Assembly (NCBI GenBank): GCA_003194525.1
Contig: NBIV01000189.1
Location: 1 to 64,000, forward strand
DNA length: 64,000 nucleotides
Reading direction: 5' to 3'
Origin: Gracilariopsis chorda
Taxonomy: Eukaryota; Rhodophyta; Florideophyceae; Gracilariales; Gracilariaceae
The first letter of the stretch is position 1. Every line of letters begins with the position of its first letter. The notes under the pieces were generated by a model, which made no database searches, was not told the DNA's origin, and worked only from the letters and a program-made list of their open reading frames with translations. Below, piece after piece: positions 36,236 to 64,000 of the stretch. Position numbers and translations under genes: made by a program.

Positions 36236-36950
36236 TGTATTTCAATGCCCGGAAGCGGGAGTATACCGAAAAACGTTCTTATTTTTTCCTCGATAGAGAT
36301 GAGCCCAGTAGGTATAGCTCTCCTAGAAGCAACAGGACTTTGTCGGGTTGTAAAGCCGAAGAACACCGTCACGACTTGCGAAGGGAGATCGAGACAAAAA
36401 GTAGGTATCTGTAGGAGCAGTGTGCGTGAGGGAGGTAGTTCTCTACAGAGATGAGACTTTCACCGTAGTAAAACGAGCCAACACAAGCCGTGGGTAGCGG
36501 AAACGTCATCCCAGAAAGACAAAAGAAAGAAGGAGCTGAGTCACGAGTGTCGTCAGGAAGACTAATGGCAGTGCCGGTAAATGAACCTTATAAAAGGCGA
36601 AAACCAAGACAGTTGGAATAATATTCTGAATAATCAGGTCCTTTAGATAGGCAAGGGGGTTAGAATTTCTGTATGCTACGGTGCCTCGCTCCAAGAAGGT
36701 GTAGAGAGCACACGAAGGCGGTGAGGCCTAGAGCCAATCACCCAGGTTGGAGTCTGTTGTTGGGGAAGGTCTACCGCTTTGATGGCAACCTGCCGGTGCT
36801 CTAGGTACTAGACATGTCAGAAAGTGGTGGAAAAACAATGAATAGAATGAACTAAGTTACTCCATCCTGGTGGTATATACCCACTACTGTGGCCAACCGC
36901 CAATTGACTCTTCTGTGTCCCACGTGTCAAATCCTCTGTTAGTGGTCGTA
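36236..36950 (-). repeat. Solo gypsy LTR (G1 type), 3' portion; continues at 50,728-50,809
   Basis: It is the diverged reverse complement of the G1 LTR. Matching phrases include gacacgtgggacac, caattggcggttggccacag and the accgtcacgacttgcg block. ATAAG lies immediately outside at 36,231-36,235 and again at 50,810-50,814, so one LTR of about 797 bp inserted with a 5-bp duplication and was later split at a TA by pogo-2. It sits inside element E. Confidence 0.85.
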
Positions 36951-38173: not shown

Positions 38174-38987
38174 TGTAGTGCAACGCCCTCAGGGAGGGAT
38201 TCTTGGTACTTGAATGCTTTCCCGATATTATCGGTTGTGTAGTGTGTATATGAACTACGCCCCACAATGGTGGGTATGGACACGTGGGACACGGTTTTGG
38301 GTCAATTGGCGGTTGGCCACAGTAGTGGATGTTGCCACGAAATGTGGAGTATTTTCGTTGATTTTATTTATTATTTTCACACCCATTTCTAGGAAGCTAG
38401 TACTTAGTGCGACGGCGCACTGCCGTCGCACCAGTAAACCTTCCCCAACAAGGGACCCCAACCTGGGGAATTGGCTCTAGTTGTTACCGCTTGCGCGCGT
38501 GCTCTACTCCTCCTTGGAGGGAAACGCCGTGAACCACGGGACATCTAACCCCGTTGCACATCTAAAGGGCCCCATCACTGGGAGTCATATTATTCCAATT
38601 GCATTGGTATTTCGCCCTGTATAGGGAGTCCTGTCCACCGGCATTGCCGTATTTGTTCGTCGCTCTCGCGACTCACCCTCGCCCACTCTTTCTCCTTTCC
38701 CCCTTCCATGGTAGTACATCCCGCTACCCGCGGCCCTTCCAGTGTGCACTCGCTCACACTTCCCCACTTACGTGGAAACATACCTGTAGTGAGGATCACA
38801 CCCCGCTCACGCGGATACCGATTCTTCGCCTTCACCACCCTGCGCAAGTTGCGACAGGTGTCCCTGGTCTTACAAACCGGCTTCGCCGTGACACCTCTGG
38901 TAGGGCTCTACCCAACTGGGTTCACCTCGTGAGAGGAAGATCGCGAACGTCTTTCGGTGTTTTTCCCCTTTGGGGCATTGCACCACA
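38174..38987 (+). repeat. 5' LTR of gypsy G1, 814 bp
   Basis: It starts TGTAGTGCAACGCCCTC, ends GCATTGCACCACA, and is nearly identical to 47,826-48,639. Short frames inside (for example 38,599-39,006) are also present in the other LTR and in the fragment at 63,047, and are not taken as genes. Confidence 0.95.
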
Positions 38988-39006: not shown

Positions 39007-39092
39007 AATCGGTTTTTGTTTTCCCTCTTACGAGGTTTGTTTTTATTTACCGGAAGTTCCGTGATCGTTTCCCGTCGTAACGGTATTTTCTC

Positions 39093-41267
39093 ATGTCGAG
39101 AAATCCCTCCGATGCGGAGCCAGTGGTGACGCGTAGTCATTCCCGCGACAACGCGGACACTTCCAAAGTTCGGTTCGTACCCCGTATCCTTATACGGACA
39201 AGTTTCAGCCGTGCTGGCGCCGCTTCATCGCGGAATGATACCCCCGACCGGGAACCCCGGAACCTCCTTTTGCTCTCGTTATCACCCTCGCAGGGGAATG
39301 CAGCATCGACTCCAGCTGTTGCCGCAGTGCCCCAGGCCCCCCGGCCTGCTCCCGCTGTCACGGCTTCAAGCCCCTGTGTAACGGGCGATAACACCCCTCA
39401 GGGGCCTTCCCTGGAATCCCAGGTCCGCGCTCTGTGGAACGCCCATGACAACCTTGTAGGGGAACTAAAATCCCTCCAAGAGGTGGTCTTGGCAACCCCC
39501 GTAAAGGAGGTTGCCGAGGAACTCCGTATTTTACGGTCTGACGTCAACTCCGTGTTGGAGAGTTTGGGACAACCTGCCACCTTCATCGAAGAAGTTGAAG
39601 CCCGATTTGATCGGATTGGTGCCCGCCTGGAGACGCTGGAGCAGTTCGTCCTCATGGACAAACCATCCCCGGATGATACAGTAAACGAGGCATCGCACAA
39701 CGACCAGCTTGCTGGGAAGAAGAAATGCCGTCATCGACGGAAACACCACCGAAAATATTCGGACTCCGATTCTTCGACATCTTCGGACTCATCCCGAAAC
39801 CATTCGGTTAGCTCGAGCTCCTCGGACTCCGACTCGGAAGACGAGAAGCGAGGCTACTCCTCCCGCTCAAAGCGATCATCGGCCACTGAAGGTGTGGTTC
39901 GAACCCGCCAGAAGGGGAGAAGACACCCCGGTCTCCGGGAATTGAAACCGACAAACCCGGATTACCGGAAGCTTTTATCATACCGGTACTACCGGCTCGA
40001 AGACTCGTCACTTGGACGTACGCCCCGTGGTACGGGAAAGGTGCGAGAATGCATTAAGCGAATGCAGCTCTCGCTCCGCAACCAGTATTTTACTGGAGAG
40101 GACCCAGTCCTAGTACTGGATTTCCTATCCCGCTTTGTAGCGGAGGCCGATATCCTCGGTGGGAATGAGGGACAAGCCTATTTGGCTTTACCATATTTCT
40201 TACGGGGAGTGGCGGAAAACCAATACAACTCTGTCAGAGGATCTTCTCGTGCCTCCGAGGGAGGGGTTACTTGCTGGCCGGAGGCTGTGCGGTATCTTCT
40301 GCGCTCCTATGCCACAAACACCGCTACTCAGCAGGCTATCCTCGCTTTGTGAGAGACACGCCAGCATGCTGGAGAGACCGAGACCGATTACTCGGTGTGC
40401 CTTAACAAGGCTTTCCACAGATGTGGTAACTTATACCCCGCTGGGGAGCGCAGTACCATGTTCATCGATGGTCTTGACCCGGCAATCCGGAGTTTAGTTA
40501 CCCGTTATCGGGAGGACAAGCGGAGGATCACCTATCTCGAGCTGGTCCAACACGCTCGAGCAGAAGGGGATGCACTCCGTGCAAGAACTCCGAACAATCG
40601 GTCTAAATCCGCCAAGGCGTTGTTGCTAGAAAGCGAAGCTTCCTCACTCCCGCTCACTGCGTATGGGAACCCTGGACAGGGATTTGATACCGTGCATTTA
40701 GTGCAGTGGGATTATGTGTCGATACCCACCAGCGATTTGCCGTCGACGACGGAGATGGCCCGTGATACGGGAACAGAAGATCCCGTTCTACACGGTGGTA
40801 ACGGTCGGGTCCAACCCCAACGACTCCCGTTTCCAAACGGTCAATCCCGTTATCTACGGCCTGGATGGACTGACACCCGCCCTGCGGTTCGCTTCTCCTA
40901 TACTCGGAATAATAATCCGCGTGTCGCGGTGTTGGCTCTCATTTGCCACCTGTGCTATGCCCATGGCCATACCTCACCTCAGTGTATTTGTTCACTGAAG
41001 GATATGGCAAAGGTAGTGGCAAATTATGAGGCCCTCACTCCACAGGAGAAACGTTCCGTCCCAACGGCTTCCTACCTCCGTGCTAAAACTGACTTTTCCC
41101 ATGCCCTACCACAGAACCCGCGTGCGCGGCAAGCTTCATACACCCCGATTCGGGAGATCACGCAACCATCCGTTGCAACCCCCGCTTATGGGGATACAAA
41201 CCCCCGTCAACGGGATGAAGCACTAGTTGTCGAGGAAACCAACCCACCGCCGAAGGCGGAAAACTAA
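39093..41267 (+). pseudogene. G1 gag (one nonsense codon)
   Basis: It starts MSRNPSDAEPVVTRSHSRDN. A coiled-coil-like region follows (LVGELKSLQEVVLATPVKEV…), then a Ser/Asp-rich stretch (SDSDSSTSSDSS), the capsid region (YRYYRLEDSSLGRTPRG; DPVLVLDFLSRFVAEADILG; CWPEAVRYLLRSYAT) and a CCHC knuckle, CHLCYAHGHTSPQC, near residue 615. A TGA at 40,350-40,352 stands where the G2 protein has Arg (AILDLREV), fitting CGA to TGA. Otherwise the 724-codon frame is open. The protein would form the particle shell. The gag stop at 41,265 follows a near-slippery heptamer. Confidence 0.9.
41258..41264 (+). promoter_or_regulatory. Possible -1 frameshift site at the G1 gag stop
   Basis: The heptamer GGAAAAC directly precedes the gag TAA, and pol is open in the -1 frame from this point. 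It differs by one base from the canonical GGGAAAC at the same place in G2. As written it is a weaker match to the X-XXY-YYZ rule. Confidence 0.45.
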
Positions 41268-44200
41268 CTGAGGGAGTCTCCCCTTTAGGAGAGGCGTCCT
41301 CAGACAAGAGGCTGTTGGCGCCCGAGGCGTCCTCGCCTCGCTCCCCGGTGAAAGTGCTCTCGAGGAAAGACACCGCTGACGCGGACTCTGCGCACCTCAG
41401 TGTGTTGCGTCGCCCTTGGATACGGAGTAAAAATCCCCGGATTCCCGGTACAGTCTTGGTCTTGGCCAAGCGCAACTATAAGGTCTATGCCGACCTTGGC
41501 CTTGATCCCCAGTTTATGGTGAGGTTTCTCACCGTCCTGGATACAGGTGCAGGCCCCAACTTTGTTGTGGAATCATTGTTACCCCCGCTTGTGCGGTCTC
41601 GTATCCGCTCTGACGCGGTCCCCGACATTTCGGATGCGAACAACGATCCGTTACAAACGGTGGGCATAGTGGACCTCGTCGTGAGACTTGGTACCTCTGT
41701 GGTGAAGTTGGACTTCATCGTTTGCCGTTCTTTGGCAGCACCAGTCATACTGGGATGTGATTACTGCGACAGATTTGTCGACGCAATCAGGCCCCGCCTC
41801 AGGCGTGTAGAACTTGACGACCGATCGTCGGTTCCGATTGTTCGCCGCCCGCTAAAGCGGTCCTCTCGGAAACAAGTTCCGCTCCCTGCTGCCCAGGAAC
41901 CACCACCCGCGTCCCGCGAGTTTACCAAGCTCCGCGTCGCCGCCTCTGTTTCTATACCGCCTGAGTCCCAAGTCTGGGTGCAGGTATATTCCCGTCAACA
42001 CGGTCTTCGGGTTGTACAACCCCTCGCCTCGTTGTACGAGAAGTCCCAGCTGGCGCTGGCTAATGGAAGTGTCTCCATTTCCCCGGATGTTCCTTTCCGG
42101 ATATTGGTTTCCAACCTTGGCAAACACCCCCACTATCTGGTAAAACACCAAGTAATTGGGAGTGTAACCCCCCATCATATGGGAATGCTGCCAACGAAGA
42201 TGACAGCCGCCAATGTACTCGGAGTTACCACCTCTTCTGAGGAGTTCGCCCCGCCGTCCGAAGACGTCAAGTCTAAGGAGGGGGAGGAAACCGCTACTTC
42301 AGCGTCGAACACACCGAGTAACTCGGAATTGCGCACCACACCTGTTCCACAGGACAATACTCCATCGAGCAACGACCGGATTGATCCGGAAAAGGCACTT
42401 GAAGCGCTGGACTTCAGCCACGTGCCAGAATCGCACCGCGACAAACTCCGTACAATGTTACGGGAATTCACCACAATGTGGGATGGCTCGCTTGGCGAAA
42501 TTAATGCAACGGAACACCGGATGGATTTACTCCCCGGTGCGCGACCAGTTGCAAAACCCCCTTACAGAGCAGGTCCGAAAGCTCGGGAAGAGGAGCAGTC
42601 CCAAGTGGACAAGATGCTCCGCGCAGGTGTGATTGAGCCCGCTCAATCACCCTGGGCATCCCCAGTTGTACTGGCTTTGAAGGCCGACGGAACCTGGAGG
42701 TTCTGTGTCGACTACCGCCGGCCCAATGCCGTGACTGTTAGGGACACGTACCCGATCCCTCGTATGGACGAGTGTATTGACTCCCTTGGAGACGCCACCG
42801 TGTTCACGGCTCTCGATGTCAATTGGGGATATTGGCAAGTACCTGTCAGACAGGAGGATCGCGACAAAACCGCATTCACCTGCCACGCAGGAACGTACCG
42901 CTTCAAGCGGATGCCATTTCGGTTAACCAACGCCCCCGCCACCTTTTAGCGTGCAGTAGATATTCTACTCCACCGCTTCAAGTGGCGGAGTTGTCTGGTA
43001 TACCTTGATGATATTATCATCTTCTCCAACTCGTAGGACGACCATCTCACTCACGTCCAAGACGTGGTGACCGTACTCCGCGATGCGGGAATTACCCTCA
43101 AGTTGAGGAAATGCGAGTTTTTCACAGATACTGTGAGGTATCTGGGTCACATTATCCGTCCTGGACGGTTAGCGATCGAGAAAGCTCGAGTCAAATCCCT
43201 CGTTGAGGCGAAAGAACCCCGTACTCAAACGGAACTGCGCTCCTTTCTGGGGCTGGTCAACGTCTATCTACGGTTTATCCTGAACTTTTCGGATACTGCG
43301 GCGCCCCTAAACGCGTTGGTGCGAAAGGGGAACCCGCCAAAACTGGGAGCATTTACGCCCGAGCAATGGGAAGCCTTTAACTCCTTGAAGGAGGCTGTCA
43401 CATCAGCACCAATCCTACATCTCCCAAAACTTGGGTTGCCATACTCCGTAGATACGGACTCGAGCGACTACGAAGTCGGGTGTGCTCTTTTTCAAACCAC
43501 CCCCGAGGGGGAACGACATCCAATTGGTTATTGGTCGCGCTCGCTCAATGTTCATGAGCGGAACTACTCCGTCTCGGAGAAAGAGTGCCTCGCCGTCCTA
43601 TGGGCGATGAACACTCTGCGCCCCTACCTTATGAGAGTTCACTTCACCGTGTACACGGATCATTCCTCATTGAGGTGGTTAATGAATATCTCCGTCCCGT
43701 CGGGACGCCTCATGCGCTGGAGCCTCCGCCTCGCGGAATATGACTTTCAAGTCATTTAAAAAAAGGGCGCGCAGAACACCCAAGCCGACGCCCTGTCGCG
43801 TGTACCCACAAGTGGGGAAGCACTCCCAACGGAGGATGATGAAGTCCCATGTTTCATGGCCAAAGGCCCGGATGATATGGAATGTGCCGTCGAGGCTGCG
43901 CCAGAAAACTGGGACGAGGATGCTGACTTTGACGAACTACTCGCATCGCCAAATAAATCTGAGAACCCGCTACCGGGAAACTTTGTACCGGTATCACCGG
44001 AAGAACTGATCCGAGAACAATTCGGCGACCCATTCTGTACGAGGATTCGTGCCCGTCTTAACGGTGGTGAAGATCTCCCTTTCGGGGTAAACGACAAAGG
44101 CTACCTCGTAAGGAAGGTCGAAGCCCGCCCAAAGATTGTGGTACCTCATTCCCTGCAGTCGCGGGTGTTACATCTATCACACTACGCCCCCATTGGAGGT

Positions 44201-45493
44201 CACCCAGGTGGGAGGAAACTCTACCTAACCCTGCGAAGGGATTTCTATTGGCCCGCCATGGCGGTGGATTGGTACGCAACCGTGCGGTTTTGTAGCGAGT
44301 GCGCGAAGAATCGCTTGAAACTCCGCAAAAACGCGAAGAAGATGAAACTATTCCCCGCAAGGGCGCCGCTCGAGTTTATCGCGATCGATATTCTCGGACC
44401 ACTACTCACCATGAAACGTGGAAACAAGTTTCTACTTGTCATTACCGACCGCTTTTCTAAGCTGGTACGGACTGTCCCTCTTCGGAGGATAACCGCTCTC
44501 ACGGTGGCCCAGGCTCTGGTGACGCACTGGATCTTCGTCTACGGTCCCCCTGTGGAGGTGCTCTCCGATAACGGGAAACAGTTCGCGAGCAAGTTCTTCC
44601 AGGATGTTTGTCGCATCCTGGATGTCAAGAACTTGTTCACGACTACCTACCACCCCCTGTGTAATGGGCAAGTTGAACGGTTTAACTGGACGTTACTCGC
44701 GGCGTTACGTTCCTACGTCGCAGACCACCTAAAGAACTGGGACATGTACGCTGATGCGGTAACCTATGCGTACAATACGCAGGTACACCGGACTACCGGA
44801 GTTTCGCCTTTCGAGTTGGTTCTATCTAGAACACCCCCGCCTGTGACGCTGAAACCCCAAGCTACCTTGGACAATTTCCCATCAGTGGGTATCTACCGGC
44901 AGCAATGGAAGCAATGGCTTTCCAAGCTGGTCCCCGCTGAGCGGAAGTCTATGGCATGGGCCCAAGCCGCTTACAAGCGGGATTTTGACGCTCGCTTGCG
45001 AGAAAAGACCCCCCCGATTCGGGCAAGTAACTACGTCTTCATCAGGAAGGCGTACTACAACCCGGAACGGGAGAAGCGCCATAAACTCTCGCCTGTGGCG
45101 GATGGACCATTCAAGGTCATCTTTGTAAACACTGATACTGTCGTGGTAGAGATGGGCGACACGCACGAACGGGTTTCCCGTGATCGTGTTGTCCTTGCCC
45201 CTCCTCCCTCGTCAGAGGTAGTCCTGGATCCAGGCAACCCCGTTTCTACGGACTCTGCAACACCGGAATCATCCGGGAGTACTAGGCCTACGGTACTACT
45301 ACACCCCAGCCGGGGACTCTCAGACCTACCGACCCTGTCGGACCCACCGGCTCAGCCGTGTAATTCGGGTCTCTCAGCGCCCGTCCCTACCACGCCCGCT
45401 CCACTGGCGCGCATTTATACCCGCCAAGCGGGGAATGTTATCCCTTATCCCTCCACTCCGTCTAAGGAGGGGGAGGAGAACACTCGTTTTTGA
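41268..45493 (+). pseudogene. G1 pol: protease, RT, RNase H, integrase
   Basis: One frame, -1 relative to gag, encodes protease (LDTGAGPNFV near 41,541), RT (FCVDYRRPNAVTVRDTYP…MPFRLTNAPATF and VYLDDIIIFSNS), RNase H (SVDTDSSDYEVGCAL; ERNYSVSEKECLAVLWA) and integrase. Integrase has the HHCC zinc site (HLSHY…GGHPGG, CSECAKN), triad residues in IDILGPL, LSDNGKQF and CNGQVERFN, and a GPF-type C-terminal motif (VADGPFKV). Nonsense codons lie at 42,947-42,949 (TAG, likely from CAG), 43,034-43,036 (TAG) and 43,757-43,759 (TAA). Order PR-RT-RH-IN identifies Ty3/gypsy. Confidence 0.92.
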
Positions 45494-46991
45494 GGAACGA
45501 TATCGCCGTCGCAACGGGAGACACACTGTAACATACGGAATACTGACCGTGGAGCACGGAGTATGTCACGCGACATTAATCCCCCGTTCCCGGCAGTGCT
45601 GTGCAACAGGAACCAGACGCGCAGGCCCCGCAAAAGCGGCAAATACACCGTTTATCACGGGAAAACGAGAAGCCTCCCTCCAATACCGCAGCAACGGAAA
45701 TGCAATTGCCCGATCCATCCCCGGAGGCATCGCCACAAACGCTGGAAATATACTGGGCTACACGGGAAGTTGAAGCGCAACTACCGCACACCCCTGTCAG
45801 GGAAGGATCCCCGATAAGGGAGTATGGTGACGATTGCCCCCAATCCCCTGGGCAGAGCAATGCATCGAAGCCGCCATTGGCGGAAGCCCCCGTGGAAGCG
45901 GTTCAATTAGGTCCAGCAGACCCGCACCCCGCTCAGAAGAGGCGCCCAGATACGCCAGGCTCACAGGTAAATACCCACACCTCTCTTGGGGAAAAGGGCA
46001 GCCAACCCGCAGTCGAAGCTTCAGGCCTTGGCGCGCAAGCGCCGGAAACGCCTCCCGTCGTTGACGGAATCGAAGCCCCCACTCCTGGGAATAATTTGCA
46101 CCAACCCCTGCAACGCTGCAGCAAAGAACCGAGGAACTCCGGAAAACCGCGCGCCATCGCACGCTCGAAACCGGTCGTACCAGACGCTGCTCCTCCTCAT
46201 GGAGATGGTGCACCGCGCTTAGCGGCAATTCCCCTGAAAAGGGTGTCATCGGCACCTGCCCAGCACCCCCCAAAAGGGAATTTTGACCAAAATACCGGTG
46301 TACCGGAGGTAGCCCCAGGCAACCCGTCAGTAGCCGGGGACACCACGGCGTCGCCGGAACGTATGGTGCAGAACGCTCATGCACCTGGCAGGGAGGGGAA
46401 ACGCTTACCAACCACGGTGTCGCACGGGACCCCGCAGTGGATGTCACAAACGCCGTTCCCGCATACGTGACAAAGACCCCGCAAGCTCGCGGTTCGCGAA
46501 GATGACTGCACTCGCGGAGTTCAAGTCCCGCGCCAGTTGGCGGTTCGCCCGGCCTACCTTGAAGACGGGAACAACGACACCCTTCTGGGGAACGACTTGC
46601 CGGTGAAAACCGTGATGCCACACTTCCTCTTGAGGGATATTTTCCCGCATGAGCAGCGGCTACTAGGACAGCGCACGGCAACGCCGGAGAGATCGCCGAC
46701 AAACCGGATGGGTGTAACATACCGCGCAGCGGGCAACCCTCACAAGGGAGTACAACCACCACCCGGAACGGCCGGCAGGTCTACGAACGAGAGTTCGTAG
46801 TAGACCGACTTGTCGGACACACCTGGGACCAGGATGGTATTGTACAATACCGCGTCCGCTGGTACGGGTATGACCCCAGTGGGGATACGTGGGAGCCAAT
46901 TCAACACCTCCCACGATCGCATGTCGTGCGATACCACCGTCAAACGGGAACTGCAGCCCCAGCCACGCTGGTTGACGCCCAAGTCGGGTGA
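45494..46991 (+). pseudogene. G1 pol C-terminal linker and chromodomain (out of frame)
   Basis: A Pro-rich linker is open in another frame (45,601-46,470), and the chromodomain lies in a third frame at 46,782-46,991: REFVVDRLVGHTWDQDG, VQYRVRWYGYDPSGDTWEPI, HLPRSHVVRYH. In G2 the same parts are in one frame joined to integrase, so G1 has frameshifts here. Chromodomains on gypsy integrases bind modified histones and direct insertion, often to heterochromatin. The aromatic cage-like residues (Y, W, W) are present. Confidence 0.8.
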
Positions 46992-47123
46992 CGTTGCCGC
47001 GCGAGTGGGGGGCCGTAAGAAAGGATAGCAAGGGAAAATCCGTCCAAGACGGGGAATTCTAATTGAAAATCACCGTCCGAGACGGGAAAGTTTACCTAGT
47101 GGTGTAGCAAGCTCCATACTACA

Positions 47124-47600
47124 CTACACTAGCTGGCATAGCCAGGGAAGGAACACCAGGAAACTGGACAAAAGGGGCTCACTCTTCGCCGTTGCCCAGG
47201 GCTTGGCCACCCGCAAGGCGGTAAGCCAACACGTCCGCCATGGCGGTGACATCCCCGGAAGGGTGTCTGAGCCATCCGCATAAGCGGTTACCAATCTCTC
47301 ATTGAGGACAGCGACCGGGTGAAACCACGGGGCAAGGCGCAGGCGCGACGCGTGATTCCGATTCATCGGGTTGAGCCCCACCAGGGTGTTGTAGGTGGGC
47401 CAGTTGAACGCCGGAGCGGTTCCGGAGGATCCCACCGAAGGTGGTAGTGCGAAGGGATGGTCGGCTGCAGCAGCCACATTCCCCGGTTGTACCGGATGTT
47501 GATCGCCCTGAGGCAGAGGAACTGACCGGAAACCGGTGGTGTATCGCCCGAGAGACCTCGGAGGCTGGCTGTTGTTGTTGATGTTGTTGTCGTTGTTCAT
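47124..47600 (-). pseudogene. G1 antisense gene, N-terminal part only
   Basis: An ATG at 47,600 on the minus strand gives MNNDNNINNNSQPPRSLGRY. It continues through PTYNTLVGLNP and APWFHPVAVLNERLVTAY to a stop at 47,124. The plus strand of G2 has a long homologue in the same relative place (PSYAELVGRN, APWFFPAAVRNEGLIATY). About 150 residues align; the G1 copy then loses similarity and ends, so the rest is deleted. The protein family is not recognised. The gene is transcribed, if at all, from near the 3' LTR toward pol. Confidence 0.7.
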
Positions 47601-47825: not shown

Positions 47826-48639
47826 TGTAGTGCAACGCCCTCAGGGAGGGATTCTTGGTACTTGAATGCTTTCCCGATATTATCGGTTGTGTAGTGTGTA
47901 TATGAACTACGCCCCACAATGGTGGATATGGACACGTGGGACACGGTTTTGGGGCAATTGGCGGTTGGCCACAGTAGTGGATATTGCCACGAAATGTGGA
48001 GTATTTTAGTTGATTTTATTTATTATTTTCACACCCATTTCTGGGAAGCTAGTACTTAGTGCGACGGCGCACTGCCGTCGCACCAGTAAACCTTCCCCAA
48101 CAAGGGACCCCAACCTGGGGAATTGGCTCTAGTTGTTACCGCTTGCGCGCGTGCTCTACTCCTCTTTGGAGGGAAACGCCGTGAACCACGGGACATCTAA
48201 CCCCCTTGCACATCTAAAGGAACCCATCACTGGGAGTCATATTATTCCAATTGCATTGGTGTTCCGCCCTGTATAGGGAGTCCTGTCCACCGGCATTGCC
48301 GTATTTGTTCGTCGCTCTCGCGACTCACCCTCGCCCACTCTTCCTCCTTTCCCCCTTCCAGGGTAGTACATCCCGCTAACCGCGGCCCTTCCAGTGTGCA
48401 CTCGCTCACACTTCCCCACTTACGTGGAAACATACCTGTACTGAGGATCACACCCCGCTCACGCGGATACCGATTCTTCGCCTTCACCTCCCTGCGCAAG
48501 TCACGACAGGTGTCCCTGGTCTTACAAACCGGCTTCACCGTGACACCTATGGGAGGGCTCTACCCAACTGGGTTCACCTCGTGAGAGGAAGATGGCGAAC
48601 GTCTTTCGGTGTTTTTCCCCTTTGAGGCAGTGCACCACA
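47826..48639 (+). repeat. 3' LTR of gypsy G1, 814 bp
   Basis: It has the same length and ends as the 5' LTR. It is followed directly by the GGTTC target duplication and pogo-2 transposase sequence. Confidence 0.95.
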
Positions 48640-48644
48640 GGTTC

Positions 48645-50336
48645 ATGCTGTTCATCGCAACTCTGGTCCTCAGCAGTACTTCCAGCTTCATTGAATGCTG
48701 ATATATCCTCATGCCCGACCGCTGCAGCCTCCATGAAGGCTTTTTTCTATGAGATAGTCTTCGCAACAGGAAGACTTTGCTCCACCTCCGTCATGTGCCC
48801 CATCTCCTGCAAATCTACCTGAGGCAACATTCCAGTACCATTCAGCTCCGCAATATCGCTTGCCAAACTAGATGTAGGGTCATCTTGCGTATCTTTGTAC
48901 TGTAGAGCATTAAGGACATCACCTTCAACCACAGATTTTGGACCCCTCTCTGCATTCAAGTACAGCTTTCTTCTGTAGAGAGCCGTTTGGGCAGTCTTCT
49001 TATGTTCATCGCGTATATACTGCGGTAGAAAAGATGAAGGAGAACGTGCACCACGTCTAGTAACATCACCGCGCTCCTGGTGCAACTTCAAGACAGCATT
49101 TCTGTAAAATGGGAGGAGAATGTCTGTTACGAGCCATGAGTTCAGTATGAAGCTGTAGGGCACCAGATCCCAGGCCCTCGCGATGCCCTGTACCCCGTCA
49201 TACACCGCGACAGCCTTTCGAAGATGGAATGGCTCCCGCTTCGACGGCACGGATCCAATTGCGTTTCAATCTATTCGAAAATGTGTCGCACGAGGAGATA
49301 GCAGAAATGACACTTGAATGAGCGTCCAACAGCAGCATCGACGGGATGTACGTGTGACGTAAGGTTTTGGGGAAGGAATGAGCAGTTAAGATTTGCGAAG
49401 CTTTGGGACTCAATGTTATGTGCTGAGCAATTGTCAACGACATCAATAAATGTTTCGCCCTGCAACTTTGCAAACTTGTAAAAGCTAACGAAGATTTGAT
49501 TACAGATATTCTTCGTATTCCAGGCGTCCTGCTGTGAAATTTAGTAAATTTTGAGATCCTGCTGGCCGTTGAAGTGCCGAGGAAAGCTTTGAGGACGTTT
49601 AGAGTTCCCAATGATTGTCAAGAAAGCTTTGGTTCCGTCACCAAATATAGTCAACACGGCGGTGAGCCTTTCTTCAACTCGCTCGTATGCCGTTCCATCT
49701 TGGGAAATTGGGCGACTGCGTAGCGATCTGAATAGAATTGCAACTTCGTCTGTATTCATTATGGACGACAATGGATAGTGAGCAACCTCTCTCTTCATGT
49801 TATGTCTTGCCTTTTCAACGAGGCACTCCTCGAAATGCCTGGCATTACCAGCTCCTTTCTTACTTGAGAAGACATTGCGAATCATATATTTCTGATACAA
49901 GTAATGACTTGTGACAATTCTTTGAAGGTACTTGGCTTCATTGTTAAGCTTTTGCAAATGTTCTTCAGTACATTCTGCCGCTCTTGCGGTGACTTTCTTA
50001 ATCATCTCGTCCATGATCCGGAGGGCCCGTTTTCCTACACCGCTTTCCTTCAACGGGGATTCATATCGTATTCACGAGATGAGGTCATTCATGTACGTCG
50101 TAAAAGCCTGTTCAATTTGCAGAAAACCGCCAGGTTTGAGCCGCCTACGTTTGAGAATGCTGCTGTTTTGAGGTTTCTTTTGCCACTGTATTATGTCTGT
50201 TCTTCACACAAGCGCATACTGTTGTTTTGAAAGCCCCGTACTTCAACGCAACTTAAGTTTGTGTCCAGGGCTTCTGTATAGATCGGTTGATCTTTGCAAT
50301 GGGTTTGGACCCATCTTGTTTGAAACTGAGAATTGG
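48645..50336 (-). pseudogene. pogo-2 transposase, main part
   Basis: The minus strand reads, in order, a helix-turn-helix with a stop (KPWTQ-stop-VALKYGAFKTTV), FTTYMNDLIS, GKRALRIMDEMIKKV, IMNTDEVAILFRSL (first Asp), DGTKAFLTIIGNSKRPQSFP, VDVVDNCSAHNIES (second Asp), HVHPVDAAVGRSFKCHF (third Asp), FHLRKAVAVYDGVQGIARAW and the acidic tail. It aligns with pogo-1 throughout and has several stops and shifts. Residue Lys follows the Ser where pogo-1 has its TGA. The last part lies beyond G1 and the LTR palindrome at 37,188. Confidence 0.85.
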
Positions 50337-52579: not shown

Positions 52580-54220
52580 ATGAGTCTTCCTCCACACGGG
52601 AATCAACCTGCGTCTTATGACGACCTCGACGCTCCTCAGCAGCCATCAGCTTCGCGAAACGCACCGATGTCCGCGTCACAGACTGCTCCTCTGCCGCAAT
52701 CGGCATTGAATCAGGTGATCCCACCGTATCTTCTTCTTGTCACACCAAACCAATTGGCTCCTAATCCTGATGTCAGCACCTTTCCGTCCTACGCAGAACT
52801 GGTCGGACGCAATTCGTTGCAGCATCTAGCGTCATACTCACGCGCACCATGGTTCTTCCCCGCGGCTGTCCGCAATGAAGGTCTCATCGCCACATATGTT
52901 GTCGCCTGTCGACTTCCTGACGGTTTGCCATGGTTTGCGATGTACACGAGCGATTGGCTGAGCCACTGTGCTCTTCCGGATGTTGCGATCAGTCGCTACC
53001 AAAACGAGTCCATGGCGGAGGCCCGCAGACAGTTTGTACGATTAGTGTACTTGCGGATGCGCCGCGTCATTGGGACGGTTCCCCTTCATGAAGATTGTAA
53101 CATCGACACCTGGGTCGCTTGGACGAACGGCGAAGCCTACGCGTACGTCGAGAACCTTGCGAACCTAGACGTCCTTCAGTGGCGTGGTGGCCGTGGTGGT
53201 GTGTCCAATGCAGCTCTTTGCTTTGACAATCCTCAACTACGAGCAGAGTTCCGCTACTTTCGTAAGCGTGACATCCACTATTGGGAGTACCCACGATGGT
53301 AAAGGCAGACCAGGTCAAGACTTGGGTACCTCGTGCTGTATCAAATGCTTGAGATTGACCGCGTTCGGTATCGCTCGTGCATTGGGCGCTACATCCCCAT
53401 TCCAAGACATTGGCATGAAATCGAGTGTCCTCGTAGCTGTGCAGTGGAGCTGCCTCCCACGCTGACCTACGTGGGGTCTCTGTTAACAAACGATCCGTTT
53501 TCGGGGTATTGGGTAGTGGTCTACACTGAGTTCATAGCCAAAATGGCAGTGTATGTCCTCTGGGATGTGTACGACACCTACCGCTTGTGGTACATGACCC
53601 CGACGGCCCGCCGTTACGCACGAGAACTTGATCTCTCCTTCATCCTAGGCTCCCGAGCCAATCAAGAGGATTTTCGTCGCCTTGTCGACATCATCGACCA
53701 AGTGAACTGGAGTCTCATCCCTGTGGAACAGAGCTCAAGAAGAAATCCTCGCGTTCACCATTCTCCTGGGAGGAACGGCCCTGGTGGTGATTTCATCTGG
53801 TATGATCCCTGGACGAGCCAGCACATAGATGGCAGACAGGCCAAGCAGTTACTCGAAAATCTGCGAGCCATGCCGCCGACACAGCTTACTGGTTACATAT
53901 TCGAACCGAGTCCGATGAACTCTGACGCTCTTGTCGACGAATACCAGGAGATAGCCAACGATGTGGCGATGGGGGAACCCGAAGAGGAGGTGGATGCACC
54001 AAACGATGGTACTGACGTGGAGCCTATTCCTGCTGCGATGCAGGAGTCTGCTCCAGCTCCTGCTCCACTGCAAACCCTATAGGGTGAGGCTGAGCTCCAT
54101 TGTCTGAGGTGTCTCCTCTTAGATGCGGGTGTTTTGCCGGGTCAGATCCCGACTAGCCGCCAACAAATGGTTAATCTCCTTCGCGATCACATGGGCAATA
54201 TGCCCACTAAGAATGCGTAA
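52580..54220 (+). pseudogene. G2 antisense gene: unknown protein of about 546 codons, two in-frame stops
   Basis: An ATG at 52,580 (MSLPPHGNQPASYDDLDAP) opens a plus-strand frame that is antisense to G2. It is broken only by TAA 53,300-53,302 and TAG 54,080-54,082 and ends with TAA at 54,218-54,220. The N-terminus is Pro/Gln/Ser-rich. A conserved block, PSYAELVGRN to APWFFPAAVRNEGLIATY, is shared with the G1 antisense gene. Later parts are Trp/Tyr-rich (FRYFRKRDIHYWEYPRW; MAVYVLWDVYDTYRLWYMTP) and an acidic Pro/Ala tail follows (GEPEEEVDAPNDGTDVEP). I see no signal peptide, membrane segment, zinc site or known catalytic motif. It is convergent with pol. Plant Tat/Grande-type gypsy elements are known to carry unrelated antisense ORFs, which gives a precedent only. 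Confidence 0.75.
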
Positions 54221-54797: not shown

Positions 54798-55400
54798 TTA
54801 ACCGACGCTAGCGTCATCATTGTTGTCCGGGATAGCTAAATTAGCCCGGTTGCAGTACCAAAGTACATGAGACCGTGGTAAATTGCCAATTGGTTCCCAA
54901 GTATCGCTACTAGGCGCGTATCCGTACCACCGTACCTTAAACAGCAAACGATTGTCTGCATCCCGTCCGTGGAAAACGATACGTTCGATAACGTACTCTC
55001 TCTCGCTGTTGAGGTCTTCAGCTGGGACTGTTTCCCGATCAGTAGATGATGGTTCACGCCCTTGATGCGCGTGTCGCTGAGTTACTTCAACATCGATGTC
55101 AATTGATGACTTCTCGTCCGCATCGACGGTATTCCGTTCCGAATTCCTCGCCGATGGGCGTCTAATCGCCAGTCTCTTGGATTCTTGTTTCCTTTCTGGT
55201 TTGGCCGGTTTTCCCAATCCAACATTCGGTACAACCGATTCAGTCGGCGATGACGTGACTTCCTTCGTCACTGTACGCCTGAGAATAGCTCGCGAAGGCC
55301 TCTCTAGATCCGGGCTTACGATAGCCGATGTAATGGGGTGTTCCCCTTCTCGTCCAACCTCCCGTACAGTCGGGTCGGCCGAGACATGTTTCTGCTGTGG
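54798..55400 (-). pseudogene. G2 pol C-terminal end with chromodomain
   Basis: The frame below the TGA at 55,401-55,403 continues in phase with integrase. It holds a Ser/Glu-rich linker, then the chromodomain EYVIERIVFHGRDADNRLLF, KVRWYGYAPSSDTWEPIGNL, PRSHVLWYC. In G2 only one stop separates integrase and chromodomain, which shows that the family makes them as one polypeptide. Chromodomains tether integrase to histone marks. Confidence 0.88.
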
Positions 55401-57034
55401 TCAGGCCACTTGAACCTCATTTCTTCCTTTCCTCTCCCTGTCTTCATGAGACTTTAGGGTTTCCACATGTGCAGTTGCACTTTCTTTCACGTCACGCAAG
55501 TCTAGTGCTCCACCCGTGGCGTTGTCGCCTTGGGCTTCACCATTGTCGTTGCTCGACTCACTTCTTTGCTCGGAGCGTTCAGTCGCGGTGGTGGAAGGCG
55601 GTTCCGCTACGGCGTGCGTCGCCTTCACTGTCTCCACGGGGCTTCCCAAGTCAATAATATCGTCCACAGACGCACTGTACGGTGGCAACGCGCCGTTGCG
55701 CTCCGTAAAACGGTAATTTTGCCCCGCATCGCCAGGTGGCACTTCTTTCGAAATTATTTTGCCCTGTGGTGGGACATCAGTGGGTTTCTGCCCTGTGAGT
55801 GGCTGGATCGGCGTCAACGTCTGCGAATCTGCACGAAAGGCCACCGCTTGCTTCGCGTCAGCCTCTGCACTGGGTGCACTCACCACACGATCACGTGATA
55901 TGCGCTCCACTTCTTTTCCTCTCCTAATGACAACTGTGTCCTGGTCGAACTCGACAACTTCAAGCGGTCCAGTCGCGATCGGGGCTAGCTTGTGACGGCA
56001 TCGTCGGTCTCTTTTTTCCTCGCGCGTTTTCCCGTCAGTTCTCTCTAGTCTCACGAACACGTGTCCTCGAACCCGCAAATCCGGAATAGGCGGTCTAATC
56101 GTAGCGTCATAATTGCGTTTAAACCGTTCTTGGGCCTTTCCCATTTGCTTTGCGGCCTGCACAGCGCGTGCGCGCAGCTCGTTCCTCTAGCGTAGGTGGA
56201 ATTGAGCCGGGGTTGGCATGTCTTCGAGTTCCTCTTCTTTCGAGCTAACCTTGATCGGTAGAGCCGGTGGTCGGCGTGACAGTACCAGCTCGAATGGGGC
56301 ATATTTCGTCGTCGAATGCACCTGCGTATTGTACGCATAACAGAGCGTGTCCGTATACAGATCCCAATCCTTTGGATGATCAGAGATGTAGTGCCGAAGA
56401 GCGGCTAGTATAGTACGGTTGTACCGTTCCACCTGGCCGTTGCACTGCGGATGATATGTCGTGGTAAACACGTTCTTAACACCCATTATCCTGCATACAT
56501 CCTGAAAGAAGCGAGCAACAAATTGCTTTCCGTTATCTGAGAGCAGATTAGCCGGGGGTCCGTAGTAGTAAACCCAATGGTGGATAAAAGCTCGTGCGAT
56601 CACGAGAGCGGTAATAAGTTTGAGCGGAACAGTTTTCACCAGCTTCGAGAAGCGATCGGTGATTACCAAGAGGTAGCTGTTCCCTCGCTTAGAGCGAATT
56701 AATTCTCCAAGTATATCTATGCTCACATACTCCAAAGGCGCCTTGGCAGGAAATAGCTTCAGCGGCTTCTTCTTCTTCCACAATTTCACTCTGTTCTTAG
56801 CGCACGTTGCGCACAAGTTACCCGTCGCGTGGCAGTCCATTGCCAATGTTGGCCAATAGAAATCTCTTCTTAGGCTTAGATAAAGCGTCGTACCTCCTGG
56901 GTGACCAGATAGCTGCGAGTAATGCGCCAGATGCAGTACCCTGCTCTTGAGAGAGTGTAGTATCACGATCTGCACATAGGCTTCGACAGCTCGAACTAAT
57001 ATTCCGCGATCGTCGACACGAAAAGGTAGCACCT
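55401..57034 (-). pseudogene. G2 integrase and linker
   Basis: The minus strand reads the zinc site (HLAHYSQLSGHPGG…CATCAKN), the triad in IDILGEL, LLSDNGKQF and HPQCNGQVERYN, and the C-terminal GPL-type motif (IATGPLEVVEF). A TAG at 56,187-56,189 and TGA at 55,401-55,403 interrupt it. A one-base change in the six-C run 57,035-57,040 (plus strand) puts this part out of phase with RNase H. Confidence 0.9.
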
Positions 57035-59760
57035 CCCCCCGTTAAGACGTGAGCGGATTGCAGCACAAAAAGCGTCAGTGAGCTGTTCACGGAGTAGCTC
57101 TTCGAGCGTTATTCGTTCAAGCTGCCGGTCAGCATCAGTATCCGTTGTTTGCGCTATCAGCACATCCATGACGTAATCGTCGTCATCCCAAGTTTGCACT
57201 TCCGTTTCTAGAGATACCAGCTCCTCCATTGTAAGACAAGGGATGTCATCATCAATTCCCAATTGGGTCTCGCCCAGAGTTTCGAGCCGCGAAAGCGCGT
57301 CAGCATGGACTTTATAGGTTCCTTTCTTGTACTTGACTGCGAAGTCGAATTCAGAAAGACGTAGCCGCCAGCGCATTAAGCGTCTCGAGGGGTCAGAAAT
57401 TGACATAAGCCATCTTAAGCAAGAGTGATCCGTGTTGAGGGTGAAGTGTACACCCTGTAGGTAAGGCCTAAAGGTCGTAAAAGCCCATACTACAGCTAAA
57501 CATTCCTTTTCGGAAACGGAGTAGTTCTTCTCTGCCTGATGCAGTGAACGGGACCAGTATCCAATGGGATAACGCTTACCGTCTTCGTACGTTTGAAAAA
57601 GGGCACACCATACCTGGTAGTCACTAGAATCTGTGTCGACGGAAAAGGGTAGATCCGGTTTCGGAAGTCGTAGCAATGGGGCTGAGGTCAGCATATGCTT
57701 CAGTGTTTCGAAAGCGTCCGTCTTGGCTTCCCCGAATTCCTTCAACTGTGAGGGTTCTCCTTTCTTCAATAAAGCGTTCAAAGGCGCAGCGACATGCGAA
57801 TAGCGTGGAACAAATCTCCTGTAAACGTTACAGAGTCCTAAAAAGGCACGTAGTTGCGTCTGTGTCCGCGGAGGTTTTGCTCCACGTATTGCAGCGGTCT
57901 GCCTCTCCTCGATTTACAAAGTTCCCGGCTTGATCCGGTGTCCGAGGTACTTCACCTAGTTTGTGAACCATTCGCGCTTCTTAATCTTCTATGAAATGCC
58001 AGCGTTATCCAACTGCTTGAGAATTGCCCCGAAATCAGAGAAATGGTCTTCCATATCATGACTGTAGACAATGATGTCGTCCAAGTAGACTAAACAAGTC
58101 TTTCACTTATACTGTGAGAGTATGATATCGATAGCGCCCTGAAACGTCGCCGGAGCATTGGTCAAGCCAAAAGGCATTCGCTTGAAGCGATATAGTCCTG
58201 CGTGACAAACAAACGCCGTCTTGTAGCGATCTTCTGGTGCAACGGGCACTTGCCAGTAACCCCAATTTGCGTCAAGCGTAGTAAAGACGTTGGCTTCTCC
58301 AAGGCTATCGAGGCATTCATCCATGCGCGGCAATGGATAAGTATCCCTCACTGTTACTGCATTCAGCTTCCTGTAGTCAACGCAGAAGCGTAACGATCCA
58401 TCTGCTTTCCGAACTAACACCACGGGTGAGGCCCATGCTGATTGAGCTGGCTCAATAATACCTTTCTCCAGCATGTAGTCAACATGTTCCTGTTCGATTT
58501 GTCGAGCCTGCGGCCCTGCCCGATGCAGTGGTTGGGCGATGGGTCTAGTGCCCGGCAACACGTCGATGTGATGCTCTGTAGCAGCGATCTGGCCAAGGTA
58601 GTCATTCCACATATGTGAAAACTTCAGCAGTAGTCCGCGTAATCTCTCATGATATTCCTCAGGTACGTGTTCCATCTTCACGCCCTCGAGGGCTTCTTCA
58701 GTTTCCTTCTTGGAAACCTTCTCCTCCTTTACGTTGTCCGTCGCTGTTAATGCCGGTGCTGGCTGCAAATCACTCTCAGGTGAAATTCCCAAGACGTCTG
58801 CCGTCATAACATGAGTAGGTATGACTACCGAAGGGTGTGGCAGAGCGGTTCCAAGAACCTGATTCTTGTGCATTCTGCACTCATTGACTCCGGTGTTAAT
58901 CACCAGGATTTTGAATGGCCTGTTGGGCTCCACTTGGGCAATGCCGTTAGCGACAAGTATTAAATGGGTATGATAAAGTGCCGAGTTCGGCTGAATGACA
59001 ATGAGTCCATGCTTAGCAGTGGTGACTGTTATCAAAGCCTGATGTTGGGGAGGCACCACTGTCATCTGAGACACACGAATGCGTGGCGAAGTCCTGCCCT
59101 TTGGGGCTTCGTACTCCTGTGAAGGTCGTAACGGAGCAGCTGCGTTTGAACGCCGTAATGGCTTTCGTACTATCGGTACAGTGGACTCGTCGTCCAACTC
59201 AACTTCCCGATTCTTCGGACGAATTGCTTCGACAAACCTGTCACAATAATCACAACCAAGCACAACTGGTGCAGCTAACGTGGTACAAACGATAAACGGC
59301 AGCATGAAAACATGATTTCCAAGTTGAACGACAAGTTTTATCGTTCCAAGAGACTTGATGGGTCTCTTGTTTGCGTCCTGGATATCCGGTAAGCGTGCCT
59401 CCTGGATTTGAGCTCGCTCGTCAGACTGTAGTTCCGACAATCTGATTAAGTTTGGCCCAGCGCCAGTATCGATAACTGCGAGCCTGCGTAACAGGAGAGA
59501 CTTTGATGAGCCAATGTCGGCATAGACCTTATAATTCCTGCGGGCCATGATCATGACGTAGTCTGTCCGTCTTCCTGGGCACACATATCGTCTCCAAGGG
59601 CGTTTCAAAGCGCAGTCGAGCTGCACTCGTTTTCCGACATTCGAAGATCTCTCTGGTCTCAGAAGGACCTTCGGTTTAAAATCCCGGGAGCGGGGAAATG
59701 CCGAAACCCCGGCCGGTAAGATGGGATCGATCTTTACCGACCCCCTGAGGACTCCCTCCT
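57035..59760 (-). pseudogene. G2 protease, RT and RNase H
   Basis: Pol is open in the -1 frame from the gag stop. It shows protease (VIDTGAGPNLIRLSEL), RT (DGSLRFCVDYRKLNAVTVRD; FTTLDANWGYWQVPV; MPFGLTNAPATFQ; VYLDDIIVYSHD) and RNase H (FSVDTDSSDYQVWCALFQ; KNYSVSEKECLAVVWAF; VKYKKGTYKVHADALSRL). Stops lie near 58,100 (after LSQYK) and at three points between 57,915 and 58,010. It reads better than G1 in RNase H (VKYKKG intact). Confidence 0.9.
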
Positions 59761-61864
59761 CTAGTTTCCCGATTGAGCGGGCTTACGAACCACGGGTGCG
59801 TTCCCCATCTTCAAGTCTCCTCGCGCTTGTTCCACCTTCTGGACTCCCGATTGGCGTCTGGCGTCTGCTGTAACCCAAGCCTTGGCCTGCCAGTACGAGT
59901 TAGACGGTACACGGGCACGTTCCGCTTCCGATAGGGCTTCATAATTCAGGATGAACTGCGCGACCTCTCTGACGGACAGCGTGCACTCTGCCGACAGATG
60001 GTGTCTACCATAACAGCTATAAAAAATCAGGCATTCACTGTTCAGTCGCCCCTGGTAGTTGCCTACCAAGCGATTGTTTACCCAACCGGGTCTCTTCTCA
60101 GTTATTCTTCTTGGAGGCGGAACGACCGCATTTCTTTGGTACAGATACCTGCGTGGTTCCATAGCCATCAGTTCAGAATCCTGAAGAGACTCAGTTGAAG
60201 GCAACTCCGTGGTCAGTATAGACCCAACTGGTTCATCCAGATACTGCAAAGCATCATGCTCCGCATGGCTTTCCTGTGGCGTCTGCGTCGAAAAGTGTGA
60301 ATGTTCTGGCGACTCCAGATACATGGCTTTGCCCCTCTTCGCACCACGCTGCAAACTCACATCTTTAGAGGGGTACGTTCCAAGACGTCGGGTTGTAGAG
60401 CTCACTCCACTGCGGGCTCGTACCGCATCTCCTTCCGCCTGTGCGAATTGAATAAGCTCCAGGAAGCGGATTCGGGGATGCCGTTCCCGATGGCGGGCAA
60501 CAAGTGACTTGATGGTCCTATCCAATCCATCGACGTAAAGCGTCATCTTGTCGTCCATAATATGAACGTTTCCGCAACGAATCGCTGCCTTATTCAGCCT
60601 TGAGCTGTACTCCACATCTGTCTCCGTATCCTTCTGGGTAACTTCCCTCAGATCCAAGATTGCTCTACGAATGGCGTTCGAAGTAGCATAACTATGTAGC
60701 AAATACTGAACAGCCTCAGACCTACAGGTGACTCCACCTTCATCCGCATTCAGCGAGCCACTGGCAGCACGACACTGCTCCAGTGCGACCCTCCGCGGAA
60801 AGTGTGGTAAAGCCACGAACGCCTGCGCTGCGCTAACCTTGAGAGTGTTTGCCTCTATGACAAACCGGCACAAAAACTCAAAGATGAGTATGGGATCCGT
60901 CCCATCAAAGGTGAGTTCACCCAAACCAACTTTCAATCGGCGAATGTGATCTCTCACTTTCCATGTCTCGCGACCTGATCGCTTCGTCTTACGAACTCGT
61001 AATCGATAGTACCGATAATTGGCAATCTTCCGATAAAGCGGATTCGTACACGAAAGGCGCTTCATTCCGTAGTGGGAAGGGCCCTTCTTAAGACGCGAAA
61101 CTGAGTTACCACTCTTCTTCCTTCTCGGGCCGCGAGATTCTTCCTCGTCGCTCGAGCTACTGTCGTCCTCTGACAAATTGTCCTCAGAACTCTCTGAAGA
61201 GGAGTTATCATCATCTGCGTCCTCCAAATTCTCTTCAGAATCATCAAGCCTTATGGACTTCCACTTCTTTGACCGCTTTGAAGACTGCTTCTTCCGTTCT
61301 TTCCTTTTCGAAAGGGCTTCGGCTGGACCGACTGCTTGCGCTTCAGAACGTTCTGCTTGCACAGGTGTGATCACCACGTTCTCAAGTCGTTCCAAGCGAA
61401 GATTAACGCGTGAGAGGACCTCCTCAACAGTGAAGGGTATTGCTGGCGGGGTACCCAGGAAGTTTCCTTGCCCTTCCATCAGACGATTGACGTCTTTGCG
61501 AATTGTTCGAACGACATCAGCCATCTGATTATCATCTCTTCTGTTCTTCAAAGCAATCTGCTCACGTCTTAACGTCTCCAATGACGATTCCAACAGGTTT
61601 ACCTGACTTTGCATCTCTTCCAGACGAAATTACTGCGACGAAGATTCCGCACGGAGCCGCTGTATTTCAGCACGTAGAACGTCGGTTGACGAGGAACCCT
61701 CACGGGGGGGCGGGCGCCGGTACCTCAGAAGGTGTTCCAGGCCCTTCTGTCGACCTCGACTTCCTTGCTTGCTGATATAAGCGGTTGCTCGCCTCTGTAG
61801 ACGTGGCTAAACGACTACCAGCCGCATCAGGCTTTCCTGAACTCGACCGGCTTCTTGTATGCAT
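59761..61864 (-). pseudogene. G2 gag
   Basis: The likely start at 61,864 gives MHTRSRSSSGKPDAAGSRLA. A seven-G run (61,704-61,710, plus strand) breaks the frame, then VLRAEIQRLRAESSSQ and a TAA near 61,630, then an open frame of 617 codons to the TAG at 59,761. Order: coiled coil (LLESSLETLRREQIALKNRR), acidic Ser-rich stretch, basic patch, capsid (YRYYRLRVRKTKRSGRETW; DPILIFEFLCRFVIEANTL; SEAVQYLLHSYAT) and a zinc knuckle lacking its first Cys (FYSCYGRHHLSAEC). The capsid region aligns well with G1. Confidence 0.88.
59764..59770 (-). promoter_or_regulatory. Candidate -1 ribosomal frameshift site, GGGAAAC, at the G2 gag stop
   Basis: On the minus strand the last gag codons are TCG GGA AAC TAG. 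The heptamer G-GGA-AAC fits X-XXY-YYZ exactly and abuts the stop. The -1 frame is open from here into protease. About 30 bases on, GGTAAAGAT and ATCTTACC can form an 8-bp stem with one bulge and a 7-base loop. Confidence 0.7.
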
Positions 61865-62329: not shown

Positions 62330-63046
62330 TGTGGTATTCCACTAATGCCTGTACGGCCTCGGTAGCGGGGTGGAAAGCCACAAACGAACCGCAGTTGTGG
62401 GTGTCGCCTTGCGAGCGACGGGGTTAGAAGTCAGTACCACGGTGTGAGCACCAGTAGCGAGAGAATCACGTGTGTGAGTAATGTGTCCGAAAGCGGAGAC
62501 CCAGCGTAGCCAAAAGATAACAATATCAGATGATCCTGTGGCAAACACAACAAAACAACAAACAGAATAACAAAATATACACAGTGAGCTGTACGACACG
62601 TGAGGGTATCCTCGGAACAAAGAGCTATAGCTCAGAAGCAATTAAGCACTGATGCTATAGGTACCCCTGTGTTGAATATGACTTAGGATTCTCACGGTCT
62701 GACCAAAAGGTCTTGAGTTGGGGGTGTTGGCTGGCCTTCGCCTCCCTCACCTGGGCAGGTCGCCCTTTACTAGGCTGCGAAGCCATGCAGTAGTTTGACT
62801 GTAATGCCTAAATGTGTGGCTCTCCACTAACTAAATTAACAATAAATAAAGTAGAATAAAACTAATAATTAGTGGAGGCCCACTACAGTACCAAAACTTA
62901 CTACTCTTAGTTCACATTCTTCCATAAAGGGGTTCCTTTCCTAAACCTCGCTGTACAGCCATGTACTGTAGCCGAGAGCTATGAATGTCGTCCTCGACTT
63001 AACTCATCATTCGGTGATCCGAAACCACTGCATCTCGAATGCTACA
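62330..63046 (-). repeat. 5' LTR of gypsy G2, 717 bp
   Basis: In reverse complement it starts TGTAGCATTCGAGATGC and ends …GGAATACCACA. Ends and primer-site distance parallel G1, but the interior is not alignable to the G1 LTR by eye. The AT-rich part near 62,830-62,880 is on the promoter-distal side. Its plus-strand right neighbour is a G1-type LTR. Confidence 0.75.
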
Positions 63047-63687
63047 GTTAATATTATTTATTATTTTCACACCCATTTCTGAGAGGCTAGTACTTAGTGC
63101 GACGGTGCACTGCCGTCGCACCAGTAAACCTTCCCCAACCAGGGACCCCAACCTGGGGAATTGGCTCTAGTTGTTACCGCTTGCGCGCGTGCTCTACTCC
63201 TCCTTGGAGGGAAACGCCGTAAACCACGGGACATCTAACCCCTTGCACATCTAAAGAGGCCCATCCTTGGGAGTGTAATTGTTCCAATTGCATTGGTGTT
63301 TCGCCCTGTATAGGGATATTGTTACCGGCATCGCCGTTCGTCCCCGTCGCTCTCGCGACTCACTTCGTCCTCTCTTCCTCCTCTTCGCCCTTCCTTTTTC
63401 CACTTTTTAGGGTAGCACCTCCCGCTATCCGCGGCCCTCATGTGCGCATCCGCTCACACACCCCCACTTACGTGGAAACATAACTCTACTGAGGATCACA
63501 CCCCGCTCACGCGGATACCGATTCTTCGCCTTCACCTCCCTGCGCGGGTCGCGACAAGTGTCCCTGGTCTTACAAACCGGCTTCACCGTGACAACTCTGG
63601 GAGGGCTCTACCCAACTGGGTTCACCTCGTGAGAGGAAGATCCCGAACGTCTTTCGGTGTTTTTCCCCTTTGGGGCATTGCACCACA
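63047..63687 (+). repeat. G1-type LTR fragment (last ~640 bp), host of the G2 insertion
   Basis: From ttatttattattttcacaccc to gcattgcaccaca it matches positions about 175-814 of the G1 LTR. The first part is missing; it would lie beyond the other end of G2, which is not preserved in recognisable form. Right flank gtatc. Confidence 0.9.
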
Positions 63688-64000
63688 GTATCCATAATTG
63701 GTGTCCTCCCCAGGTTTTGTAGAAGAAGCAAGGGTCTGTCATGCATTTTATAAAGCCTAAGTTCGTCAACCTTTGGGTGAACAGTCGGCTTCAAATTGCA
63801 TTGGATTGCTTCAGACCATATATTGACCGGTTCAATTTGAGTACTTGATTCTTTTGTAAACCAAATTCCAGACCTTTGGGTGGAGACATATAGACTGGCT
63901 TCTTGTCATCGATATGTCCGTTCAGAAATGCGCATTTGACATCCAACTGGTGTATTTTAAACCCAAACCTAGCTGCCAATGTCAATGCTAGTCGTACAGT
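63688..64000 (-). pseudogene. Copia reverse transcriptase fragment at window edge (another family)
   Basis: The minus strand reads LTLAARFGFKIHQLDVKCAF, LNGHIDDKKPVYMSPPKGLE, LKLNRSIYGLKQSNAI, then, after a stop, LGFIKCMTDPCFFYK. This is a well-preserved copia RT palm start, different from families A, C and E in this window. It is cut by the LTR at 63,687 and by the window end. Confidence 0.85.

Follow-up and report, generated by a model that had tools for sequence, protein, structure and literature searches.

A candidate antisense accessory gene in chromodomain Ty3/gypsy elements of the red alga Gracilariopsis chorda

Antisense genes beside the 3′ LTR are known in plant elements, in a fungal element and in HTLV, whose antisense gene is named HBZ, and they are mostly without known function. 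For Retand, a plant gypsy element of the Tat group, one study (PMC11963269) locates antisense ORFs in the interval from pol to the 3′ LTR, describes the antisense ORF TRP28 in 97% of the clusters of recently active Retand elements, and mentions some recently active Retand elements that have no typical coding domains. According to a second source (PMC7264820), gene23 of the maize element Grande has its own antisense promoter upstream, and the antisense promoter of HTLV sits inside the 3′ LTR.

Here, we analyzed a 64,000-nucleotide stretch of the G. chorda genome (hereafter, the window) that contains two gypsy elements, G1 and G2, each with an antisense gene or its remains. In G2, the antisense frame runs on the forward strand from an ATG at 52,580 to a stop codon ending at 54,220 and comprises 546 codons interrupted by two in-frame stops (53,300–53,302 and 54,080–54,082), exactly as in a preliminary description of the locus, which had placed it opposite gag-pol and beyond the chromodomain. 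The remaining parts of G2 indeed lie on the reverse strand, namely a gag-like frame (59,764–61,629, assigned by position and without a Pfam match), a reverse transcriptase part (58,106–59,782; PF00078, E 9.9e-17), an integrase with H2C2 and rve core (Pfam matches PF17921 and PF00665 in the frame at 56,190–57,041; the integrase region, with one internal stop, at 55,890–56,912), and the C-terminal part of pol with the chromodomain (54,801–55,400; PF00385, E 1.7e-8). This Pfam domain order (RVT_1, H2C2, rve, Chromo) is that of a chromodomain Ty3/gypsy element, or chromovirus. The antisense gene is arranged tail-to-tail with the chromodomain end of pol, at a distance of about 0.6 kb from the end of the frame, the chromodomain itself lying some 650 nt beyond the gene. 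The G2 gene is a decayed copy; an open frame of 592 codons on contig C341 is 90% identical to G2 residues 17–270, within its first frame of 272 aa. No LTR pair was found for G2 in the window, and since its alignment to three related copies breaks off at 52,534, just ahead of the antisense frame, the 3′ LTR of G2 is absent from the window; that the LTRs of G1 and G2 are unrelated, as the preliminary description had it, was thus not confirmed.

G1 is bounded by a 5′ LTR (38,174–38,987) and a 3′ LTR (47,826–48,639), both on the forward strand and 814 nt long, that are 97.05% identical and have GGTTC on their outer sides; the 3′ LTR is the proposed site of the antisense promoter. Between them lie, on the same strand, gag-like frames (39,081–41,264, assigned by position and without a convincing Pfam match), a reverse transcriptase part (41,219–42,946; PF00078, E 3.3e-10), and an integrase part (43,760–45,490; PF17921 and PF00665) that is 93% identical to the integrase of L042, a copy whose antisense frame is open over 609 codons. 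The homologous antisense start and shared block previously proposed for G1 proved real (BLASTP 31% over 97 aa, E 4e-8), with the N-terminal part of the gene on the reverse strand at 47,253–47,600, its ATG at 47,600, and 80% identity to L042 over 135 aa. The whole gene, however, is not kept: about 1.25 kb has been deleted from its interior, and beyond the deletion lie the 3′ remainder and the downstream spacer (46,991–47,259, reverse strand). Outside G1, the window contains G1-type LTR pieces at 63,046–63,688 (88.6%) and, inverted, at 36,567–36,928 (about 73%). Apart from the two elements, frames at 30,944–31,651 (forward) and 48,747–50,053 (reverse) have a similar block in common and resemble remains of a DDE transposase of the pogo/Tigger-like kind; a frame of 365 aa at 8,622–9,719 (reverse) may represent the N-terminal portion of a Helitron-type protein.

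Searching the G. chorda genome (91.3 Mb in 1,081 contigs) with the first 272 codons of the G2 gene returned 143 matching rows, and together with 31 of 82 and all 78 rows of two further genome searches these define at least 192 distinct places with the gene or pieces of it, a lower bound because the searches score the best candidates only. In 77 of the 143 rows the match is free of stops and its frame is 559 or more codons long, and 64 of the 78 rows were likewise without a stop. Representatives of the subfamilies share roughly 31–60% identity, and many frames are open for 590–680 codons. Nine proteins were listed by the last protein search: P0002, which is the G. chorda hypothetical protein BWQ96_03215 with a 100% genome match over residues 1–491; P0004 from Gracilaria domingensis, the one named species other than G. 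chorda to which a homologue was assigned; and seven from contigs (one lgn, six ENA). The 143 genome rows and the related proteins in other assemblies exclude chance similarity. The preliminary description had claimed a conserved antisense gene in two gypsy families, and although the homology stands, the gene is not confined to two families; it recurs in other family members, in several subfamilies and in a second species. A literature search that covered few subscription journals returned no published report of it.

The arrangement relative to pol is also maintained. In all seven contexts that were fetched (L039–L043, L068 and L069), the antisense gene is convergent with pol, and in 29 of 42 shorter loci the chromodomain lies downstream on the opposite strand. 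Among the other 13, L009–L012 and L014 appear to stop early, about 575 nt past the antisense gene, L035 contains a fragment of the gene, and L044–L050 belong to the P0002 subfamily or are closely related to it, wider fetches at two of these places having put the start of pol about 1.47 kb further on; L046 and L047, where the chromodomain is on the other side of the antisense gene, were left out of the count of 29. For the commonest subfamily, in the lists of matches that were compared, the antisense gene adjoins 47 of 136 pol C-termini, with gaps between match ends of exactly 198 nt in 35 cases, 203–224 nt in six, and close to 1,190 nt in another six, the last being larger because the 272-codon G2 query ends early. 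A single neighbour lay on the same strand as pol in this comparison. The integrases of gene-carrying elements are 52–93% identical to that of L042, as against 25–29% for the integrases at eight H2C2 matches that belong to other gypsy groups; the antisense gene was seen only beside the clade of L042-like integrases, which is the clade in which 3′ ends were read.

The gene occupies the position of the aORF-3R class, opposite gag-pol and between pol and the 3′ LTR, in G1 and L042, the elements with a located 3′ LTR. The match to the G1 3′ LTR covers 2500–3307 of L042; the antisense frame begins at 3322, immediately behind a stop codon, and contains ATGs at 3364 and 3472. With 15 nt between the 3′ LTR and the opening of the frame in this copy of the commonest subfamily, a promoter in or beside the LTR is the simplest source of the RNA, and an antisense LTR promoter for the gene is likely.

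Regular spacing was observed in several contigs. H2C2 integrase matches recur on one strand about 5.67–5.68 kb apart on C573, C10, C516, C507, C201, C298, and C191, about 6.35 kb apart on both C509 and C755, and, at another place on C10, 5.74 kb apart, a pattern suggestive of LTR elements arrayed head to tail or of tandem copies arising from assembly. The left flank of the antisense gene is found three times on one strand of C68 (about 9.34 kb apart) and of C70 (about 9.92 kb apart), so that the family carrying the antisense gene may also form head-to-tail arrays.

Of the 89 unpaired pol C-termini, ten had their 3′ ends fetched, and nine of these ten were chosen because their pol frames run to about 1,875 codons. 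L064 keeps the antisense gene over the stretch fetched, and the other nine have lost it, five wholly at one junction, two wholly at another, and two partly at a third; the internal deletion of G1 represents a fourth, distinct junction. Whether the frame is always present, as the preliminary description had asked, is answered in the negative by the main deletion form, whose junction occurs in 127 places, compared with 350 for the intact left flank (a figure that includes partial deletions, e.g. on C28 and C167) and none for the reversed control, at up to two mismatches. In the intact L042, the 6-bp repeat GGTTCT flanks the piece that is lost, and a single copy remains at the main junction, indicating that the loss is derived and the intact form ancestral. 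The recurrence of one junction at so many sites further indicates that gene-less elements multiplied after the loss, a conclusion supported by congruence rather than proven. It also follows that the protein is probably either trans-acting or dispensable.

Nei–Gojobori estimates were used to assess selection on the antisense frame. Between subfamilies, where dS is near or beyond saturation, dN/dS was 0.14–0.36 in 12 estimable comparisons (four of nine in one set and eight of 14 in another), the other five and six comparisons giving no dS. In the first set, dN and dS were, respectively, 0.33 and 1.89 for L022–L038, 0.44 and 3.18 for L017–L038, 0.38 and 1.35 for L042–L047, and 0.62 and 2.01 for L043–L047. 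These low ratios imply that the frame encodes a protein. Values around 1, which the preliminary description had named as the outcome that would speak against the gene, were confined to recent or close copy pairs (0.55–1.7), as expected of dead copies, and give no sign of current function. The pair L042–L068, in which both genes were well measured, yielded 0.40/1.43 = 0.28 for the antisense gene and 0.12/1.41 for the integrase, with identities of 55% and 83%; in this one pair, purifying selection acts about three times more weakly on the antisense protein than on the integrase. Moreover, the integrase and the antisense gene give the same grouping, with L039 and G2 set against L042 and L068 and against L043, which supports common descent over repeated capture. 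The earlier suggestion that the gene is probably ancestral, with position, orientation, and protein similarity retained, is thus upheld across the subfamilies; its presence in their common ancestor is supported by the congruence of the two predicted genes, short of proof.

As a tentative working model, we suggest that the frame is an accessory gene of a gracilarialean clade of chromodomain Ty3/gypsy elements that is translated from an antisense LTR transcript and most likely encodes a trans-acting nuclear regulator. In this model, the antisense transcript would start in or beside the 3′ LTR, independently of the gag-pol transcript, and the protein translated from it would act in trans; it might bind nucleic acid or chromatin partners in the nucleus and so adjust the expression or integration of the element, by analogy with the functions proposed for the HTLV antisense protein, Grande gene23, and TRP28 of Retand. 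Elements lacking the gene would draw on the protein made by sister copies or manage without any, and the product is probably a helper protein that copies can share. A related version, possible but less likely, is that a retrovirus-style antisense accessory protein belonging to a new family evolved independently in red-algal chromodomain elements, is promoted from the 3′ LTR, and serves as a shared good: elements of a second class, whose gag-pol is open, would have dropped the gene by microhomology deletion and would live off the first.

The protein might instead be a suppressor of host silencing that blocks, on behalf of all related copies, the alga's defence by small RNAs or chromatin; its trans action would fit the number of gene-less copies, and the arms race expected of such a protein would fit its faster evolution relative to the integrase in L042–L068. 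Faster evolution is, however, common among accessory and gag proteins, and the antisense protein showed no similarity to any Pfam family, which leaves a suppressor doubtful. The gene-less copies could also mean that a captured gene is now dispensable and decaying and has been kept only by recent amplification, as the four deletion junctions (including that of G1 and the widespread main one) and the elevated dN/dS of recent pairs might suggest. This explanation is unlikely given that the gene has been kept, at low dN/dS, across subfamilies with integrase identities as low as 55%, and that a homologue exists in Gracilaria domingensis.

The conserved protein has about 550–650 aa and consists of a P/Q/S-rich start, a neutral-to-basic, aromatic-rich core, an acidic last part, and a short conserved C-terminal block. 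In five members, the start region measures 46–146 aa with 29–50% P, Q, and S, the core 391–397 aa with a pI of 7.8–9.1 and 11–14% aromatic residues, and the last part 104–128 aa with a net charge of −12 to −22. The C-terminal block (hydrophobic-x-x-F/L-L-x-x-x-G) was present in 12 of the 16 proteins examined and missing from P0003, P0008, P0009, and L038, of which P0008 and P0009 are incomplete and L038 has a near form. In line with the preliminary description, according to which the protein resembles no known gag, pol, env, or silencing-suppressor family, we found no relatives in Pfam or PDB and no similarity to the gag frames. Transposase_28 (PF04195) was absent among the Pfam families listed for 11 members at E ≤ 5 and for six members at E ≤ 1, searches in which very weak matches may have been lost to the HMMER filters. 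Structure prediction, which had also been proposed, gave two AlphaFold models too poor for use (mean pLDDT 38.7 and 47.4), and fold searches returned nothing significant. With no known domain or fold, the nucleic-acid binding in our working model is without homology support. The best reading of these sequence features is that the gene belongs to the known class of antisense ORFs and encodes a protein of an undescribed family, carried by red-algal chromodomain elements.

Since env has a similar size and is located between pol and the 3′ LTR, we considered whether a structural or envelope-like particle protein might be encoded on the other strand. An env-like ORF would be expected in sense orientation, no usable fold match was obtained, and a consistent membrane segment was not observed: the best 19-residue hydropathy was 0.94–1.99 in five members, two of which (1.85 and 1.99) reach the values of membrane segments, and in four of the five the peak falls at one site that holds charged residues. 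We therefore regard such a protein as very improbable. Least probable of all is that the antisense RNA, which could pair with gag-pol RNA in a role discussed for retrotransposons in PMC7264820, silences or balances gag-pol with the frame as a mere by-product, because conservation of the protein down to 31–40% identity, with third codon positions changed most, requires translation; the RNA may nevertheless have a role in addition to the protein.

The coexistence of numerous intact and clean deletion forms side by side in one genome amounts to a natural experiment on trans action. The red-algal case, with its new protein family, further suggests that genes are acquired time and again at the position beside the 3′ LTR, perhaps because the LTR is able to drive transcription backwards. 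Like the antisense ORFs of Retand (PMC11963269), those described here lie between pol and the 3′ LTR; unlike Retand, a non-chromovirus of flowering plants, the red-algal elements carry a chromodomain and their antisense proteins have no PF04195 match. Place and orientation are likewise those of the antisense ORFs of Grande (gene23), rice RIRE2, and PvRetro13 (PMC7264820), whereas no Pfam family was seen to be shared with them. Outside plants, the same source describes an antisense ORF located after pol and before the 3′ LTR in Boty of Botrytis/Sclerotinia, whose host is a fungus; the likeness is one of place. HTLV differs as an animal retrovirus, and the likeness is an analogy only: in both, the antisense gene adjoins the 3′ LTR, and for the red-algal elements an antisense promoter within that repeat is proposed.
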